Shown: piece after piece, positions 233-6,019 of the stretch
Position numbering within the stretch: the first letter of the stretch is position 1
Layout of the letters: each line of letters opens with the position of its first letter
Source of the DNA: a virus
Strand: one strand, 5' to 3'
DNA length: 28,467 nucleotides
IMG/VR virus record: IMGVR_UViG_3300032245_000847
Coordinates: 1-28,467 of that record
The notes under the pieces: generated by a model
Seen by the model: the letters and a program-made list of their open reading frames with translations, nothing else
What the model was told of the DNA's origin: nothing
Databases searched by the model: none
Program-made: the position numbers and the translations under genes

Positions 233-525
233 TGTCGGGTGGTGCCCGGTCGTGCGGTTAGCCAGTTCTTGCGGGCTGCGCCACCGCGTGTGTTGCATTC
301 TTCGCATTCTGCTCGCAGCCAGCTGCCTGTGGGTGGCTCAAGCATGGATAGCCACGGCTGGGCCATTGGGTCGCCGTCTACGGTGTGGCCTGCGTGCCAG
401 GGTCTGCCGTGTTCTGTTTGGGTGCGGTGGCAGCGCCAGCAGCGTACTGTTGGGTTTGCCCATGCCCATTGGCGTAGTCGGCGTGCTGCTTGCCGGTAGG
501 CGGGGCCGTGGTGGGCGTGTGACAT
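226..525 (-). CDS. HNH endonuclease
   Basis: This 99-residue protein carries the zinc-binding HNH layout: Cys29-x2-Cys32, a Gly-His pair at 46-47 that would hold the catalytic His, then Cys74-x2-Cys77 followed directly by Asn78. HNH proteins of this size next to terminase genes are common in siphophages and are known in several phages to assist the terminase in DNA cutting. On a closed circle this gene lies just upstream of the terminase small subunit (28359), which supports that role. The ATG overlaps the stop of the preceding gene as TAATG, indicating translational coupling. A homing endonuclease is possible but less likely because the gene sits in operon order. Confidence 0.85.
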   Translation of the reverse strand: MSHAHHGPAYRQAARRLRQWAWANPTVRCWRCHRTQTEHGRPWHAGHTVDGDPMAQPWLSMLEPPTGSWLRAECEECNTRGGAARKNWLTARPGTTRQW

Positions 526-785
526 TAGGTGCCGTATGCCTGTCGGGTGAGTGGGCGTAGTGCGTTGACGTTGAGTTTGCGACGGCTGGTGATGTCTCGC
601 AGGGTGCGTTGGGCGTCTGGTTGTGTGCGTGGATCGGCTAGCAGGTCGTTGAGTGCGATTAGTGCGGCGTGTAGGTCGTGGCGTGCTGCCAGGCCGCTGG
701 CTTGCAGTTGCTCGATTTTGTCGACGGCAATGGCGGCATCGGGGTGGTTGAGTGCCAGCAGTCGGTTCACGATGTCGTCAGCCAC
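525..785 (-). CDS. Small array protein D (VADDIV start), unknown function
   Basis: The gene encodes 86 residues starting at a GTG inside the 32-bp junction unit at 768-799, which gives it a strong AAGGAGG ribosome site and the leader VADDIV shared with the three preceding genes. After the leader the protein resembles none of its neighbours. It is mostly helical, rich in Ala and Leu, without cysteines, and has a basic segment near residues 65-80. It is the last member of the array and lacks the KEADRG ending. Its stop overlaps the HNH start. I do not recognise a family; a small regulatory or host-takeover protein is only a guess. Confidence 0.75.
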   Translation of the reverse strand: MADDIVNRLLALNHPDAAIAVDKIEQLQASGLAARHDLHAALIALNDLLADPRTQPDAQRTLRDITSRRKLNVNALRPLTRQAYGT

Positions 786-799
786 GGTCGGCCTCCTTG
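768..799 (-). repeat. 32-bp gene-junction unit, copy 1
   Basis: Read on the minus strand, this unit encodes KEADRG and the TGA stop of the gene upstream, contains the AAGGAGG Shine-Dalgarno site, and contains the GTG start plus VADDIV of the gene downstream. The two genes overlap by 8 bases within GTGGCTGA. The sequence is identical to the copies at 988-1019 and 1235-1266. Confidence 0.95.
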
Positions 800-1005
800 G
801 GGTGCAGCAGACGGGCGGTCGGGCACGGGTACTCAACGAAACAAGACAAACACCACGGCACCGGCCACGCATCTGGCTGGTGCAGTTCGTCAATGGCGTA
901 AAGCAGTGCAGCAACGTCAGCGACGGCATCGGCCATGCGTACCGAGGGGTCGCAACTGCAATGGGGAAGCTCGCGTACGATGCGGGTCACGATGTCGTCA
1001 GCCAC
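778..1005 (-). CDS. Small array protein C, Cys-rich (C-x2-C-x5-PCPT)
   Basis: This is a 75-residue protein that starts with VADDIV and ends with KEADRG, both supplied by the flanking 32-bp units. The body is unrelated to genes A and B: a helical stretch at about 24-45, then Cys52-x2-Cys55-x5-Cys61-Pro-Thr. The same spacing occurs in the 59-residue protein at 1547-1726, which suggests a small zinc-binding fold. Two further cysteines lie at 16 and 18. Translation is likely coupled to gene B upstream and gene D downstream by the 8-base overlaps. Function is unknown. Confidence 0.8.
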   Translation of the reverse strand: MADDIVTRIVRELPHCSCDPSVRMADAVADVAALLYAIDELHQPDAWPVPWCLSCFVEYPCPTARLLHPKEADRG

Positions 1006-1019
1006 GGTCGGCCTCCTTG
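988..1019 (-). repeat. 32-bp gene-junction unit, copy 2
   Basis: This copy is identical to 768-799. It supplies the end of gene B and the ribosome site and start of gene C. Identity with the fourth copy extends further on the upstream-gene side, covering codons for YEAAR before KEADRG. Confidence 0.95.
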
Positions 1020-1252
1020 CGTGCTGCCTCGTACGCAGTCAGAGTGGTAAACGATTGGATCAAGCAGTCGGCCAGATCACCCCGACCGTGCAGCACCTTG
1101 GTGACCTCGCTGACTTCACGCAACGCTTCGGCCAACTGGTCAGCCAAGGCACGCAGCCGTTCGATCTCTGCCTTTGCCAGACAGAACGTGCATTGGCCGC
1201 AACCATCCTTGTTGTAGATGCATTGCAGTCGGGTCACGATGTCGTCAGCCAC
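998..1252 (-). CDS. Small array protein B, zinc-knuckle-like and coiled coil
   Basis: The 84-residue protein has the VADDIV leader, a cysteine cluster C-x6-C-x2-C-x2-C at about residues 11-24, and then a heptad-like helix (AEIERLRA onward) that predicts a coiled coil. Its first 35 or so residues are almost identical to gene A, while the rest differs, except that both end in KEADRG. Its ending, YEAARKEADRG, matches the tiny remnant at 1501-1566. The pattern fits recombination between array members. A metal-binding, DNA- or protein-binding regulator is plausible but unproven. Confidence 0.8.
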   Translation of the reverse strand: MADDIVTRLQCIYNKDGCGQCTFCLAKAEIERLRALADQLAEALREVSEVTKVLHGRGDLADCLIQSFTTLTAYEAARKEADRG

Positions 1253-1266
1253 GGTCGGCCTCCTTG
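1149..1266 (-). repeat. 118-bp direct repeat, copy 1
   Basis: This segment matches 1405-1522 over 118 bases with about five differences. It covers the 5' third of gene B, including the cysteine cluster, plus the complete 32-bp junction unit. The offset is exactly 256 bases. The high identity points to a recent duplication or gene conversion. Confidence 0.9.
1235..1266 (-). repeat. 32-bp gene-junction unit, copy 3
   Basis: This copy is identical to copies 1 and 2. It carries the end of gene A (KEADRG, TGA), the AAGGAGG ribosome site and the GTG start of gene B. Confidence 0.95.
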
Positions 1267-1508
1267 AAGTAGTTGCCGTACTTGTCCCAGTACGACTGGA
1301 TAGCGGGGGTCAGCAACTGCCGCCACGACTGCTCATGGCTGGAACCGACCACAAGCCACGCGGTACCCTCGCTGGCGAGAATGGCGTGGGCGTGTTCGAC
1401 CTGTGCACGCAGCCGTTCGATCTCTGCCTTTGCCAGACAGAACGTGCATTGGCCGCAACCATCCTTGTCGTAGATGCATTGCAGTTGTTTCACAATGTCG
1501 TCAGCCAC
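1245..1508 (-). CDS. Small array protein A, zinc-knuckle-like
   Basis: The 87-residue protein begins at GTG 1508 inside the fourth junction unit. Cysteines at 11, 18, 21 and 24 form a likely metal knuckle, followed by a short charged helix shared with gene B to about residue 35. The C-terminal half is specific to this gene, with several Trp and Tyr residues, and then KEADRG. A longer in-frame start exists upstream at 1595 but would overlap the 59-residue gene. The strong AAGGAGG site and the array logic favour 1508. Function is unknown. Confidence 0.8.
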   Translation of the reverse strand: MADDIVKQLQCIYDKDGCGQCTFCLAKAEIERLRAQVEHAHAILASEGTAWLVVGSSHEQSWRQLLTPAIQSYWDKYGNYFKEADRG

Positions 1509-1522
1509 GGTCGGCCTCCTTG
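1405..1522 (-). repeat. 118-bp direct repeat, copy 2
   Basis: This is the partner of 1149-1266. It holds the 5' part of gene A and junction unit 4. Four of the differences cluster around the VADDIV-flanking codons and one lies in the cysteine-cluster codons. Confidence 0.9.
1491..1522 (-). repeat. 32-bp gene-junction unit, copy 4
   Basis: This copy has a single mismatch to the other three. It provides the ribosome site and GTG of gene A. Upstream it encodes the KEADRG ending, but no full-length gene precedes it, only a short remnant frame. Confidence 0.95.
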
Positions 1523-1566
1523 CGTGCTGCCTCATAGGTTGCCGTCCTAAACAAGGTACTGGGCAT
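1501..1566 (-). pseudogene. 3' remnant of a lost array gene
   Basis: An ATG at 1566 opens a 21-codon frame ending in TYEAARKEADRG at the TGA inside junction unit 4. This ending is nearly the same as that of gene B (AYEAARKEADRG). The rest overlaps the 59-residue gene in another frame. The simplest reading is that a former array member was deleted and only its last dozen codons survive, possibly still translated and useful for coupling to gene A. Confidence 0.5.
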
Positions 1567-1726
1567 TGAGAGTTGCGAGTGTGTCGCACGGCCACAGCTG
1601 GTTGCAGTTCTCACACACTGGATCGTCAATCGCGCCTGTCTGCTTGTGCAGGTCGATCAGACAGTTCAAGGTGACGAACAGGTGCCTAAGGACAGTTAGT
1701 GCTGTCAGTTCTGGTTGTGTATCCAT
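1547..1726 (-). CDS. Small Cys-motif protein (C-x2-C-x5-C-x-T)
   Basis: This is a 59-residue ORF with ATG at 1726 and TAG at 1547. The N-terminal 30 residues look helical. The C-terminal half has Cys38-x2-Cys41-x5-Cys47 with Pro46 and Thr49, the same spacing as array protein C. No Shine-Dalgarno site precedes the ATG. Instead a 25-bp element shared with the gene at 4365 ends a few bases upstream, which may mean an unusual start or a regulated promoter. Small proteins with this kind of motif occur in actinophages. Function is unknown. Confidence 0.7.
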   Translation of the reverse strand: MDTQPELTALTVLRHLFVTLNCLIDLHKQTGAIDDPVCENCNQLWPCDTLATLNAQYLV

Positions 1727-1923: not shown

Positions 1924-2072
1924 CAGTGAAGCCTGCGTGTGCCGCGTGCTGGTGGTGTTGGGCGTGGCTGCCAGGTGGCAACCCGTTGGTGGGCCTCGAT
2001 AATCCAGCGTCGTATAGCTGCGATGGTTTTAGCGCTGTCCTGATGTGTGTCGTCTAGCGGTTCAGTCCACAT
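1923..2072 (-). CDS. Small basic helical protein, unknown
   Basis: The 49-residue frame starts at ATG 2072, inside the end of the replication gene (11-base overlap), and ends at TGA 1923, overlapping the next ATG. It has a likely helix at 14-35 (AKTIAAIRRWIIEAHQR) and a basic Pro/Arg-rich tail. A longer start at 2144 in the same frame would overlap the replication gene much further and is less likely. I recognise no family. Confidence 0.55.
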   Translation of the reverse strand: MWTEPLDDTHQDSAKTIAAIRRWIIEAHQRVATWQPRPTPPARGTRRLH

Positions 2073-2814
2073 GGTGTTGCTCGCTGTGCAGCTGGATGAC
2101 GGGTGCAGGTTCAGCGAAGTATCCCAGCGAATGCTTATCGCCATGCAACGCGGCTGCGATCACATCTGCTGGCGCATGAGGGAACTGGGCAAGCAGGCGC
2201 TGCAGGTCAGGGTTTGACAGTGCGGCCAGCTCGAGCGCGTGCAAATAGCCGTGCATATTCCCAATCTTGATGCCGCGCTGCTCTGCCTGCCGTGCACCGA
2301 TCAGCGCAAACTGGGCTGCGACGTCGTCAGCAAACGACGGACAGTTATCCACAGGTGCGGCTGTAGTGGTTGTTTTTATCGGGTGTGGGTATGGGTGTGG
2401 GGTTGATTCTGCGTTACTTGCACGTTCAGTGCTGCGTTGCGTCTGCGTTGGTTCTGCGTTGCTGTCTGCGTTGGTTTTGCGTTGGCGTTGCGTTGCAGAT
2501 TTGCTCCCTGCTTTGCTGGCCGCTGCGCTGCGCTTTACACGCGTGGCGCGCACTTCATCGGCTGAAGGGTTGAAATCAAGCCAGTCTGGAATCTGCCAGC
2601 CGCTGTCAGTGCCGGCCAGTAGCCCTACCGTGTGAAGCGCCTCAAGCTGCTCGCTGGTGGCAATCATGGTGGCGACCTGCGCAGGTATGTGTCCGTCTGT
2701 CAGGTGGTCGCTGCACCAGGCGCCCATGCGCACCCAGGCGCCCACAGCAGCGTTGCCGGCCTGCACCACCTTTGGGTGCGAATGGAATCTGTCATCTATT
2801 TTGAACCAGGCCAC
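2062..2814 (-). CDS. DnaD-like / phage replication initiation protein
   Basis: The 250-residue protein starts at GTG 2814. Residues 1-90 resemble the N-terminal winged-helix domain of phage replisome-organiser proteins (MAWFKIDDRFHSHPK start, then SDHLTDGHIP and a GLL..W..PDW stretch). Residues 95-150 are a low-complexity polar linker rich in Thr, Gln, Asn and Ser. The C-terminal 90 residues are helical. In other phages such proteins bind the origin and help load the host helicase. The linker-coding DNA contains phased repeats (2410-2494) that could be the origin. RusA, ERF and SSB lie nearby. No helicase or polymerase is encoded here, so the host would supply them. Confidence 0.75.
   Translation of the reverse strand: MAWFKIDDRFHSHPKVVQAGNAAVGAWVRMGAWCSDHLTDGHIPAQVATMIATSEQLEALHTVGLLAGTDSGWQIPDWLDFNPSADEVRATRVKRSAAASKAGSKSATQRQRKTNADSNAEPTQTQRSTERASNAESTPHPYPHPIKTTTTAAPVDNCPSFADDVAAQFALIGARQAEQRGIKIGNMHGYLHALELAALSNPDLQRLLAQFPHAPADVIAAALHGDKHSLGYFAEPAPVIQLHSEQHHVD
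2410..2494. repeat. Phased TGCGTT iterons inside the replication gene
   Basis: On the plus strand the core TGCGTT starts at 2410, 2433, 2444, 2455, 2467, 2478 and 2489. Successive spacings are 23, 11, 11, 12, 11 and 11 bases, about one helical turn (or two). Because 11 is not a multiple of three, the repeat runs through all codon phases, so it is unlikely to be selected for the protein sequence. A purine/pyrimidine-skewed stretch with an A-run on the minus strand lies beside it (2365-2400). This resembles initiator-binding iterons within lambda gene O. Origin function is my inference. Confidence 0.6.
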
Positions 2815-3136: not shown

Positions 3137-3618
3137 AACAGACTGGGCATATCGTCAGCCACGGCAGGCCTCCGTGCATGGCTTGCTGGGGCCAGGGTGA
3201 TCGCTGCACCAGTCCAGCCGTCTGCCACTTCAATCTTCGTTGCCTGCCATGCGACGATGCGCGCATCGTTCACGATCAGTGTCGACTGCAAAGAGTCACC
3301 AATACTGCGCAGCAATTTATCCAGATCGGGTGCTGTGGCCTTGTAGGCCCAGCCGTCTGCGCGCACACTGGCAGGCCGGCTGGCCGGCATCCGGAAGCGG
3401 AACACGACCTGCACTGCGATTTCTGGCCAGTCGACATATCCGTGCTCGAGCGCGTTCAATGCTGACGCGCGAGCCACATCGTTTCGCCAGTCTGCTTTCG
3501 CCTGGCGTGACTGGCTGGTGCCGGCCTCAACCATGGCACCGTTTGGCATTCGTGTCTTAGAGCCCTGCGGTGTGGGCACACCATGCACGATCAGTTCACG
3601 CAGGCCGGTAATCATCAT
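3133..3618 (-). CDS. rusA: RusA-family Holliday junction resolvase
   Basis: The 161-residue protein has the RusA pattern: an N-terminal GVPTPQGSKTR strand-turn (13-23), the acidic PDLDKLLRSIGDSL motif (97-110; Asp98 and Asp100 would bind metal), and the VNDARI segment (116-121; Asp118) followed by Lys128. RusA proteins cut four-way DNA junctions, which fits a phage replicating through recombination with ERF and SSB. ATG 3618 overlaps the upstream gene in ATGATGATT; an AGGA lies upstream. The last residues (RRPAVADDMPSLL) are encoded by a decayed copy of the 32-bp junction unit, so the native C terminus seems to have been replaced. Confidence 0.85.
   Translation of the reverse strand: MMITGLRELIVHGVPTPQGSKTRMPNGAMVEAGTSQSRQAKADWRNDVARASALNALEHGYVDWPEIAVQVVFRFRMPASRPASVRADGWAYKATAPDLDKLLRSIGDSLQSTLIVNDARIVAWQATKIEVADGWTGAAITLAPASHARRPAVADDMPSLL
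3150..3178 (-). repeat. Decayed 32-bp gene-junction unit, copy 5
   Basis: On the minus strand it reads GGAGGCCTGCCGTGGCTGACGA, close to the array units, about 24 of 29 bases matching. Here it is read in a different frame as the C-terminal codons of RusA, and its GTG would open only a ten-codon frame before TGA. It is probably a relic of a deleted array-type gene. Confidence 0.65.
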
Positions 3619-4009: not shown

Positions 4010-4365
4010 TGCCGGCTGGCCCAGTCTGCTGCGATGGTTGCCAAAGGGTCTGTGATGGTTTGCCATGTGGCGCCGAGTGGCCAGCCCACCAGGTTGACAC
4101 CATCAAAATTGAAATACTGAGCGTCTGCCCAGTCGACCTGGTAGACAGCGACAGCAGCGTGGGCGGTCTGCCACAGCGTGTCGTGTGCCTCATCATCGCC
4201 ATAATCGCACTGCCATTCGTGCAGGTCGACCAGTTCCTGTGTGCTGTGGTCGTAGAGGGTCAGGGTCACATGCAGCACTTTGCCCAGGCCGGTGTAGTGC
4301 TGTTGCACGCGGTCATTCAGTCTGGCAAACAGGTGCGCTGTTGCCTGTGTGTCGTTGTCTGTCAT
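4006..4365 (-). CDS. Hypothetical protein downstream of repeated element
   Basis: The 119-residue protein runs from ATG 4365; a GTG at 4383 in the same frame is possible but lies inside the repeated 25-bp element. It is acidic, with a predicted mix of helix (1-30) and strands (35-70, with HVTLTLYDHSTQELVDL) and several Trp residues towards the C terminus. No domain is recognised. It has no Shine-Dalgarno site, like the other gene preceded by the same element, so initiation may be unusual or the transcript leaderless. Confidence 0.65.
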   Translation of the reverse strand: MTDNDTQATAHLFARLNDRVQQHYTGLGKVLHVTLTLYDHSTQELVDLHEWQCDYGDDEAHDTLWQTAHAAVAVYQVDWADAQYFNFDGVNLVGWPLGATWQTITDPLATIAADWASRQ

Positions 4366-4368
4366 GGT

Positions 4369-4393
4369 GTCAGTGAACCACACCTGTCAAGTG
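4369..4393 (-). promoter_or_regulatory. 25-bp repeated upstream element, copy 2
   Basis: This is the partner of 1730-1754 (23 of 25 bases identical). It contains TTGACAGG and GGTTCACTGAC on the minus strand and ends 3 bases before ATG 4365. The two copies differ only at two adjacent positions. It may be a promoter/operator for a coordinately expressed set of early genes. Confidence 0.55.
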
Positions 4394-4458
4394 TTCCGAT
4401 CAAACAGGTTCAGCTGGTCTGGGTGTGGTGGCTTGATGTCCCACCAGATAGGTAACAG
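4387..4458 (-). other. In-frame extension beyond the WhiB stop with clamp-like motif
   Basis: Directly after the WhiB TGA the same frame stays open for 23 codons and encodes a peptide with DQLNLF near its end, a close match to the bacterial sliding-clamp binding consensus QL[SD]LF. No ATG, GTG or TTG start exists in this frame. Either occasional TGA readthrough, a non-standard start, or coincidence would explain it. Confidence 0.3.
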
Positions 4459-4971: not shown

Positions 4972-5390
4972 TAGAACGGTTCTTCGTCGCTGACGACAGC
5001 CAGCCGGCGCGCTGCAGGGTGCTGGGCTCGAGCATCACTGAGCGCCTTTGAGATTTCGACTGTCACCCACTGGAGCGAAACGCCACAGTGATCAAGCACC
5101 AGCTGCACATCGTTGCGCTTCTCACCAGACTTTGTTTCCCAGCTATCGGTCTGCAGCCGGCCCACGCACACCACGCGGTCACCTTTGTGGAGCGATGCAG
5201 CCATGTTTTCTGCGAGCTGACCGAACGCTGAAACCTTCAGAAAGCTCGTTTGTTCTTTCCATTCGCCACCAGCCTGGTAGCGGCGTGTGACAGCGACTGA
5301 TGCCTGCACGACTGCGCGTGCATCGTTCGTGAACGTCAGCGCTGGGTCTGCGGTCAGGTTGCCGATGATTGTGGCCGATGATTCGTTCAC
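4971..5390 (-). CDS. ssb: Single-stranded DNA-binding protein
   Basis: The protein has 139 residues with an OB fold: ATIIGNLTADP at the start, then VVQASVAVTRRY and WKEQTSFLKVSAFGQLAEN, and a VCVGRLQTDSWETKSGEKR strand pair, all typical of bacterial/phage SSB. The tail ends DEEPF, like the acidic tip through which SSB recruits partner proteins. GTG 5390 overlaps the ERF stop (GTGA) and has GGAAGG upstream; a longer start at 5435 is less likely. With the adjacent ERF gene it forms a recombination module: SSB coats single strands, ERF anneals them. Confidence 0.93.
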   Translation of the reverse strand: MNESSATIIGNLTADPALTFTNDARAVVQASVAVTRRYQAGGEWKEQTSFLKVSAFGQLAENMAASLHKGDRVVCVGRLQTDSWETKSGEKRNDVQLVLDHCGVSLQWVTVEISKALSDARAQHPAARRLAVVSDEEPF

Positions 5391-6019
5391 TGGGTTGCCT
5401 TCCATCCGATGTGTGTAGCGACTTGCTCGAACCACTGCTGGTCAGCCAGGAATGCAGCGGTTGAAATCTTGCGGCCAGCATCTGTCGCGAGTAGCCGCAG
5501 TTCGTTCTTTGTGGTGTCGTCAACCAGTTTGCAGGCATCAAACAGTTCTGCTGCAGCCTGCAGCCGTGGGTCTGGCTGTGGGTCTGGTGCTCGACCATGG
5601 TCGTAGCTGGTGGTGTCGCTGTCGTCAGTCTTGTCAGCAATGCTGAAGAGCTGCAGAAGCAGATATTTGTATGCCTGTGTGGCTGCCTTATTGGCGCCCT
5701 TGTCGCTGTTATCGCGACCGATGCCACAGGTCTGGGCGTAGATCACATCGGTGACGCCTGCCGGCCCATAGATGGCCCAGTTTACCTCAAGCTGGACATC
5801 GTGCCAGCCTTCTTTCATACCGGCTGCTGGTGTGATCGTCACGATGCGGCTGCTGGGTGCGATGACCACGCCATGTTTGGCGAGCAGTTGCTGCAGGTGT
5901 GCAGTGATCGCTTCGATGCCTCGATAGGCGTAGCCCTGTGGGGCTTTGTCAGCTTTGCTGATCGCTGGCAATTCGGCAGTTATCGCAGCCAGCGCTGTGA
6001 TCACGTTTGATGTGCTCAT
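5387..6019 (-). CDS. erf: ERF-family single-strand annealing protein
   Basis: The 210-residue protein shows the ERF signature: QGYAYRGIEAITAHLQQLLAKHG (about 28-50), GWHDVQLEVNW (71-81) and the strongly conserved GIGRDNSDKGANKAATQAYKY block (99-119) followed by LLLQLFSIAD. ERF proteins form rings that anneal complementary single strands and support phage genome circularisation and recombination. The C-terminal third after DDSDTT is variable, as usual in the family. It is followed immediately by SSB with a GTGA overlap, so both are probably produced together. Confidence 0.9.
   Translation of the reverse strand: MSTSNVITALAAITAELPAISKADKAPQGYAYRGIEAITAHLQQLLAKHGVVIAPSSRIVTITPAAGMKEGWHDVQLEVNWAIYGPAGVTDVIYAQTCGIGRDNSDKGANKAATQAYKYLLLQLFSIADKTDDSDTTSYDHGRAPDPQPDPRLQAAAELFDACKLVDDTTKNELRLLATDAGRKISTAAFLADQQWFEQVATHIGWKATQ

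Follow-up and report, generated by a model that had tools for sequence, protein, structure and literature searches.

Small genes of a tailed phage appear to be re-sorted at two short, phase-matched DNA joints

The locus described here is probably a shuffling array of small accessory genes in a tailed phage, which would be re-sorted by short-homology recombination at its joints and kept by translational coupling. Judging from the sequences compared, we put the probability of this reading at roughly 0.7. At that level of comparison, modularity of the genes, matching of their phases, breakpoints at the joints and sharing between unlike phages are established; the recombination itself is the proposed part.

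The window, by which we mean the whole stretch of DNA analysed, is a 28,467-base IMG/VR virus record from a tailed phage with terminase, portal, and major head and tail proteins. Its other genes include an ERF-family recombinase, a RusA-like resolvase and a WhiB-like regulator. The host is probably an actinobacterium because of the WhiB-like regulator and because of the cultured phages matched by the window terminase, which are mainly Mycobacterium, Gordonia and Propionibacterium phages, all at less than 60% identity. The array occupies a minus-strand slot flanked by a replication-initiation-like gene and an HNH-like gene, and the features that the argument needs are as follows.

5387–6019, minus strand: ERF-superfamily (Rad52-like) recombinase (PF04404, E 2.9e-16)
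3152–3173, minus strand: orphan half-unit GGAGGCCTGCCGTGGCTGACGA at the 3' end of the RusA-like ORF, where another reading frame is used
2062–2814, minus strand: replication-initiation-like gene that precedes the array and is a syntenic anchor in G001
1547–1726, minus strand: upstream small gene, 59 aa; CENCNQLWPCDT resembles Cys-rich array tails (CCECDYEWPCDT), by eye only
1501–1546, minus strand: relic of an array-gene tail (TATYEAARKEADRG) that belongs to no intact gene
1490–1521, minus strand: border unit 1, with one mismatch; supplies gene C with its ribosome site and GTG; preceded by the relic
1405–1522, minus strand: unit, head and linker, 118 nt, 96% identical to 1149–1266
1245–1508, minus strand: array gene C, 87 aa (VADDIVKQLQCIYDKDGCGQCTFCLAKAEIERLRA...KEADRG); head in common with L051, tail with L051 and L055
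1407–1424, minus strand: EIERLR linker of gene C, read from the sequence
1234–1265, minus strand: border unit 2, exact; end of gene C and start of gene B
998–1252, minus strand: array gene B, 84 aa; head of the gene C type; its different tail has 94% identity to the last part of another L047 gene
1151–1168, minus strand: EIERLR linker of gene B, read from the sequence
987–1018, minus strand: border unit 3, exact; end of gene B and start of gene D
778–1005, minus strand: array gene D, 75 aa; tail end (...TARLLHPKEADRG) also in L049, there preceding a different gene
767–798, minus strand: border unit 4, exact; end of gene D and start of gene A
525–785, minus strand: array gene A, 86 aa; head RLLALNHPDAA also in L048 and L063
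226–525, minus strand: HNH-like small gene after the array; syntenic anchor, 61% aa identity in G001; HNH by eye, with no family match in a domain search

The border unit, AAGGAGGCCGACCGTGGCTGACGACATYGTGA, is 32 bp long and is present in four minus-strand copies, one of which has a single mismatch; no copy is expected by chance (100 shuffles). It consists of AAGGAGG, a 6-nt spacer and GTG GCT GAC GAC ATY GTG A. The stop of the preceding frame is the TGA inside GTGGCTGA, 8 nt into the following gene, and the KEADRG peptide is simply the ribosome site translated. This anatomy suggests that the 8-base overlap results in translational coupling. The spacings between units (220, 247 and 256) are each 1 mod 3, and pairs of window units have exact stretches of 28–39 nt in common. 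A repeat analysis of the window reported no inverted repeats at the units. Outside the array, there is a 37-nt direct repeat, 84% identical, at 1724–1760 and 4363–4399.

The window copies bear out the original prediction that one unit encodes a gene end, AAGGAGG, a GTG start and an 8-base overlap. Its claim that four units border four genes holds for the four gene starts, but only three of the units end an intact gene. The KEADRG frame before the unit at 1490 (...TATYEAARKEADRG) lies after the stop of the gene at 1547–1726 and could start only at a TTG within that gene. Thus, not every joint bounds a working gene: a relic precedes one unit, and there is also the orphan half-unit, which is possibly the scar of a lost cassette. 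At the other end of the array, the last gene lacks a unit and has an ATGA overlap with the next gene instead. The gene bodies were also said to differ between units; this is true of genes B and C only beyond their first 118 nt, where the similarity breaks just past EIERLRA and the sequences are unrelated from there.

The place of this break is a second joint. A linker, (A)DEIERLR (GAGATCGAACGG...), lies inside most array genes and splits each of them into a head, which runs from the start up to the linker, and a tail, which runs on to the gene end. In the genes sampled, its two Glu codons are GAG in 43/45 and GAA in 43/45, against a background of about 50% in these phages (binomial p below 1e-10, relatedness ignored), so the linker is conserved as DNA. 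Codon statistics for the start unit are biased by our search patterns, and those for the linker are less so. In oriented loci, the linker DNA was found in 36 forward copies and in none on the other strand. All 28 linkers in called array genes are in phase 0, so heads and tails are phase-compatible. With heads in phase 0 and cassettes of 1 mod 3, a head can be joined to another tail with the frame kept, and genes can be inserted, deleted or duplicated without loss of frame or of coupled translation.

The four window genes had no Pfam match above the cut-off and no PHROG match, and a few of their relatives gave weak PHROG matches, the best (6e-5) to a zinc-finger domain family. Many array proteins are Cys-rich. 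A low-confidence structure prediction (mean pLDDT 65) was all helical, and the proteins are predicted to be mostly helical. Their role is probably an accessory one, in interaction with host or phage.

Scanning viral contigs with exact and degenerate patterns yielded 30 other viral records with a like array or gene start. Two further records, L077 and L078, were reached by the linker sequence alone, and both have a start unit of this type; that the two joints go together is therefore no artefact of searching with the start unit. Exact 22-mer matches in other viral contigs lay at an apparent gene start in 14 of 14 cases. Nine of these (L001–L007, L010 and L014) look like convergent strong overlaps of other phages rather than array members, and they were left out of the counts. 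L007 (near 4372) and L014 (near 7569), from an apparently unrelated phage group, behave at this border as the arrays do: near-identical upstream gene ends (...LEAARAAKEADRG) lead into different downstream genes past VADEYTP. In L078 (9002–10037, reverse-strand coordinates), the borders follow a dialect with an 11-base overlap (...EARRER / VSGD), whereas heads and tails are otherwise common to other arrays. An array gene in L063 (2305–3243) and L054 (1–930; both in reverse-strand coordinates) encodes a long AAWDAARDAAW-type repeat protein, onto which a head of the L048 type is apparently fused, and has a border unit at its end. In L051 (3074–3646), a 190-aa ORF contains two linkers and the gene C tail in series and resembles a fusion of two array genes.

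Most of the phages that carry these arrays lack a detectable relative of the window terminase. A close relative, at 57% aa identity, was found in G001 only, and matches at 30–33% in four other array-bearing records; the rest, some of which are fragments, gave no match. G001 is syntenic with the window, and its 115-bp terminal repeat implies a circular form. A terminase search of viral contigs came back empty, probably owing to overly strict peptide patterns; G001 was reached via the unit instead. DNA and protein searches of cultured phages gave no array relative, only weak mycobacteriophage matches over about half of a composite query. The start unit was present in none of the 84,980 bacterial and archaeal species genomes scanned, so no prophage host can be named. 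Misjoined assemblies are an unlikely source of the arrays, as 99–100% identity was seen in each of six pairs of array-bearing contigs that go under separate names.

Heads and tails are re-paired among these loci. We compared 62 array genes (41 with the linker) from 25 dereplicated loci. Heads were alike in 16 pairs and tails in 13, and both were alike in L062/L063 only, which are of the same phage type; without these, 15 pairs share a head, 12 share a tail and none shares both. Across gene borders, at the protein level, 22 pairs were alike upstream and 110 downstream, and the two that were alike on both sides were again both L062/L063. Distinct ends of similarity fell within 6 nt of a joint in 63 of 93 cases, where 18 were expected and the maximum in 20,000 simulations was 36. 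Collinear similarity carried across 62% of points outside arrays, 21% of start units and 4% of linkers, the count of linker breaks being inflated because short heads bring the start unit into the query window.

Individual genes illustrate the same pattern. The gene C tail precedes a different gene in L055, as does the gene B tail in L047, and one head carries two different tails in L049 and L063. One L055 gene consists of the head of one L078 gene (78%) and the tail of another (90%), joined just past the linker.

The content of the array also varies between related phages. L053 and L074 share 5,532 bp at 88.9% on the left flank, and this similarity stops at the last base of the stop/start overlap of the first unit. 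On the right flank they share 4,554 bp at 89.6%, with a breakpoint that is not at a unit. Their arrays contain six and three genes, respectively, of which only the last is clearly alike. In G001, the array occupies the same slot as in the window, between the replication-initiation-like and HNH-like genes, with largely different genes. The reverse is seen as well: 12 matches within arrays, each with at least 90% identity, join pairs of loci without other detectable common DNA, within the stretches compared, some of which are incomplete contigs.

The expectation that related phages would carry different bodies between conserved units was thus confirmed by the L053/L074 flanks and by G001. The contrary outcomes, a fixed set of genes or units away from gene borders, were not seen, as content varies and the 22-mers all sat at apparent gene starts. 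The idea that whole genes are swapped in frame from unit to unit has to be modified: array content does differ, but the piece exchanged is often a half-gene bounded by EIERLR.

Based on these results, we propose a model for how the array is re-sorted and maintained. We infer that recombination uses the unit as homology and that exchange would occur by homologous pairing at the joints, where this phage offers exact stretches of 28–39 nt. The agent would probably be a single-strand-annealing recombinase of phage origin, for which the ERF protein of the window is a candidate. Minimal pairing lengths are 31–34 bp for RecA and 23–27 bp for Red-beta (PMC3945230), and the stretches shared in the window are in or near these published lengths. 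Against such an agent, an ERF gene was recognisable in the window only, and RecT was found in 0 of the 24 related records searched, though many of these are fragments. The border unit itself may be kept intact by selection for translational coupling. More broadly, two phase-matched DNA joints might be a widespread phage format, in which unrelated phages draw heads and tails from a common pool to build new small proteins, with coding sequence as the recombination site and with no dedicated recombinase; we consider the chances of this wider proposal to be evenly balanced.

The evidence for exchange is wholly comparative, and the junctions could stem from illegitimate recombination followed by selection for frame, which we regard as the main rival to pairing at the joints. 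The unit would then act as a strong translation-start element and nothing more, in the manner of the Start-Associated Sequences, and junctions that happened to keep frame and start would survive. The textbook ribosome site with its good spacing, the orphan half-unit without a cassette, and the exact 22-mer at single gene starts of unrelated-looking phages are all what one would expect of such an element. The linker, however, is left unexplained, because it has no ribosome site, yet is conserved at the codon level, and it too is a breakpoint. We hold the start-element explanation to be unlikely.

Tandem paralogues are common in phages, and genes B and C, with their first 118 nt 96% identical, could be read as a case of tandem duplication and divergence. 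The genes would be paralogues with a conserved N-terminus and coiled coil, the units would be ancestral leftovers, and there would be no exchange between phages. Heads that are decoupled from tails, segments 90–99% identical in phages without other detected common DNA, and an L055 gene that merges parts of two different L078 genes all speak against this, and the re-paired segments shared by unrelated backbones already appear to disfavour it; we consider duplication improbable. We give almost no credence to a system dedicated to moving the cassettes, whether site-specific or targeted (integron-like, shufflon-like or a diversity-generating retroelement), even though the cassette layout, the repeated site in one orientation and the many variants would suit one. 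Neither an integron integrase, an invertase nor a retroelement reverse transcriptase was present among the main window genes scanned, which took in part of the small ORFs. Moreover, no inverted repeat that could form palindromic attC-like sites was reported at the units, which are coding sequence with variation tolerated, and two different joints are in use. Short-homology re-sorting at the two joints thus remains our preferred reading.

This matters for a long-standing question: do the borders of phage mosaics coincide with gene borders through targeted short homology, or through random joining and selection? The array does have such border sequences: they recur, match in phase and are associated with breakpoints, and the second one lies inside genes. 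The array is a natural system for a direct test of both models of mosaicism, and it makes visible how phages could put together new small accessory proteins.

Several known systems resemble the array in part. The available part of the report on the Start-Associated Sequences of cluster K mycobacteriophages describes a 13-bp GGGATAGGAGCCC a few bases before starts, mostly of genes with upstream gaps of more than 50 bp, and proposes a role in translation initiation, not in exchange (PMC3203893). Like the array unit, this is an actinophage repeat with a ribosome site just before the starts of non-structural genes. The array unit differs from it in sequence, does not match the 13-bp element and extends into both coding sequences, whereas that part of the report describes no encoding of the previous gene's end.

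Work on the shuffling of protein fragments in phages centres on core functions tied to host interaction, and more mosaicism is expected there in accessory or unknown proteins (PMC10684548). In that work, as here, proteins are built of exchangeable parts, but the array joints are conserved as DNA and phase-matched, and the array carries such shuffling over to tiny accessory genes. Relaxed homologous recombination by Rad52-like recombinases has been described for diverged homologous regions of lambda and related phages (PMC3945230). Such short-pairing recombinases are a candidate mechanism here, given the ERF gene of the window; the repeated gene-border unit sets the array apart.

The closest parallel is the boundary-sequence, or linker, model, in which short conserved intergenic sequences provide the homology for module exchange (PMC3233612, PMC3029335). 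This model has been held to be unsupported at most borders because such sequences were not found at most, or many, mosaic borders (PMC3233612, PMC3029335). In the array, as in the model, a conserved short sequence lies at module borders, module borders are gene borders, and unlike modules flank the border in related genomes (L053/L074; window/G001). Unlike the model, the array reuses one unit many times, also across unlike phages, and this unit fuses stop, ribosome site and start, while a second joint exchanges half-genes. The array thus agrees with this model of phage mosaicism, of which it is an unusually dense version with two joints.
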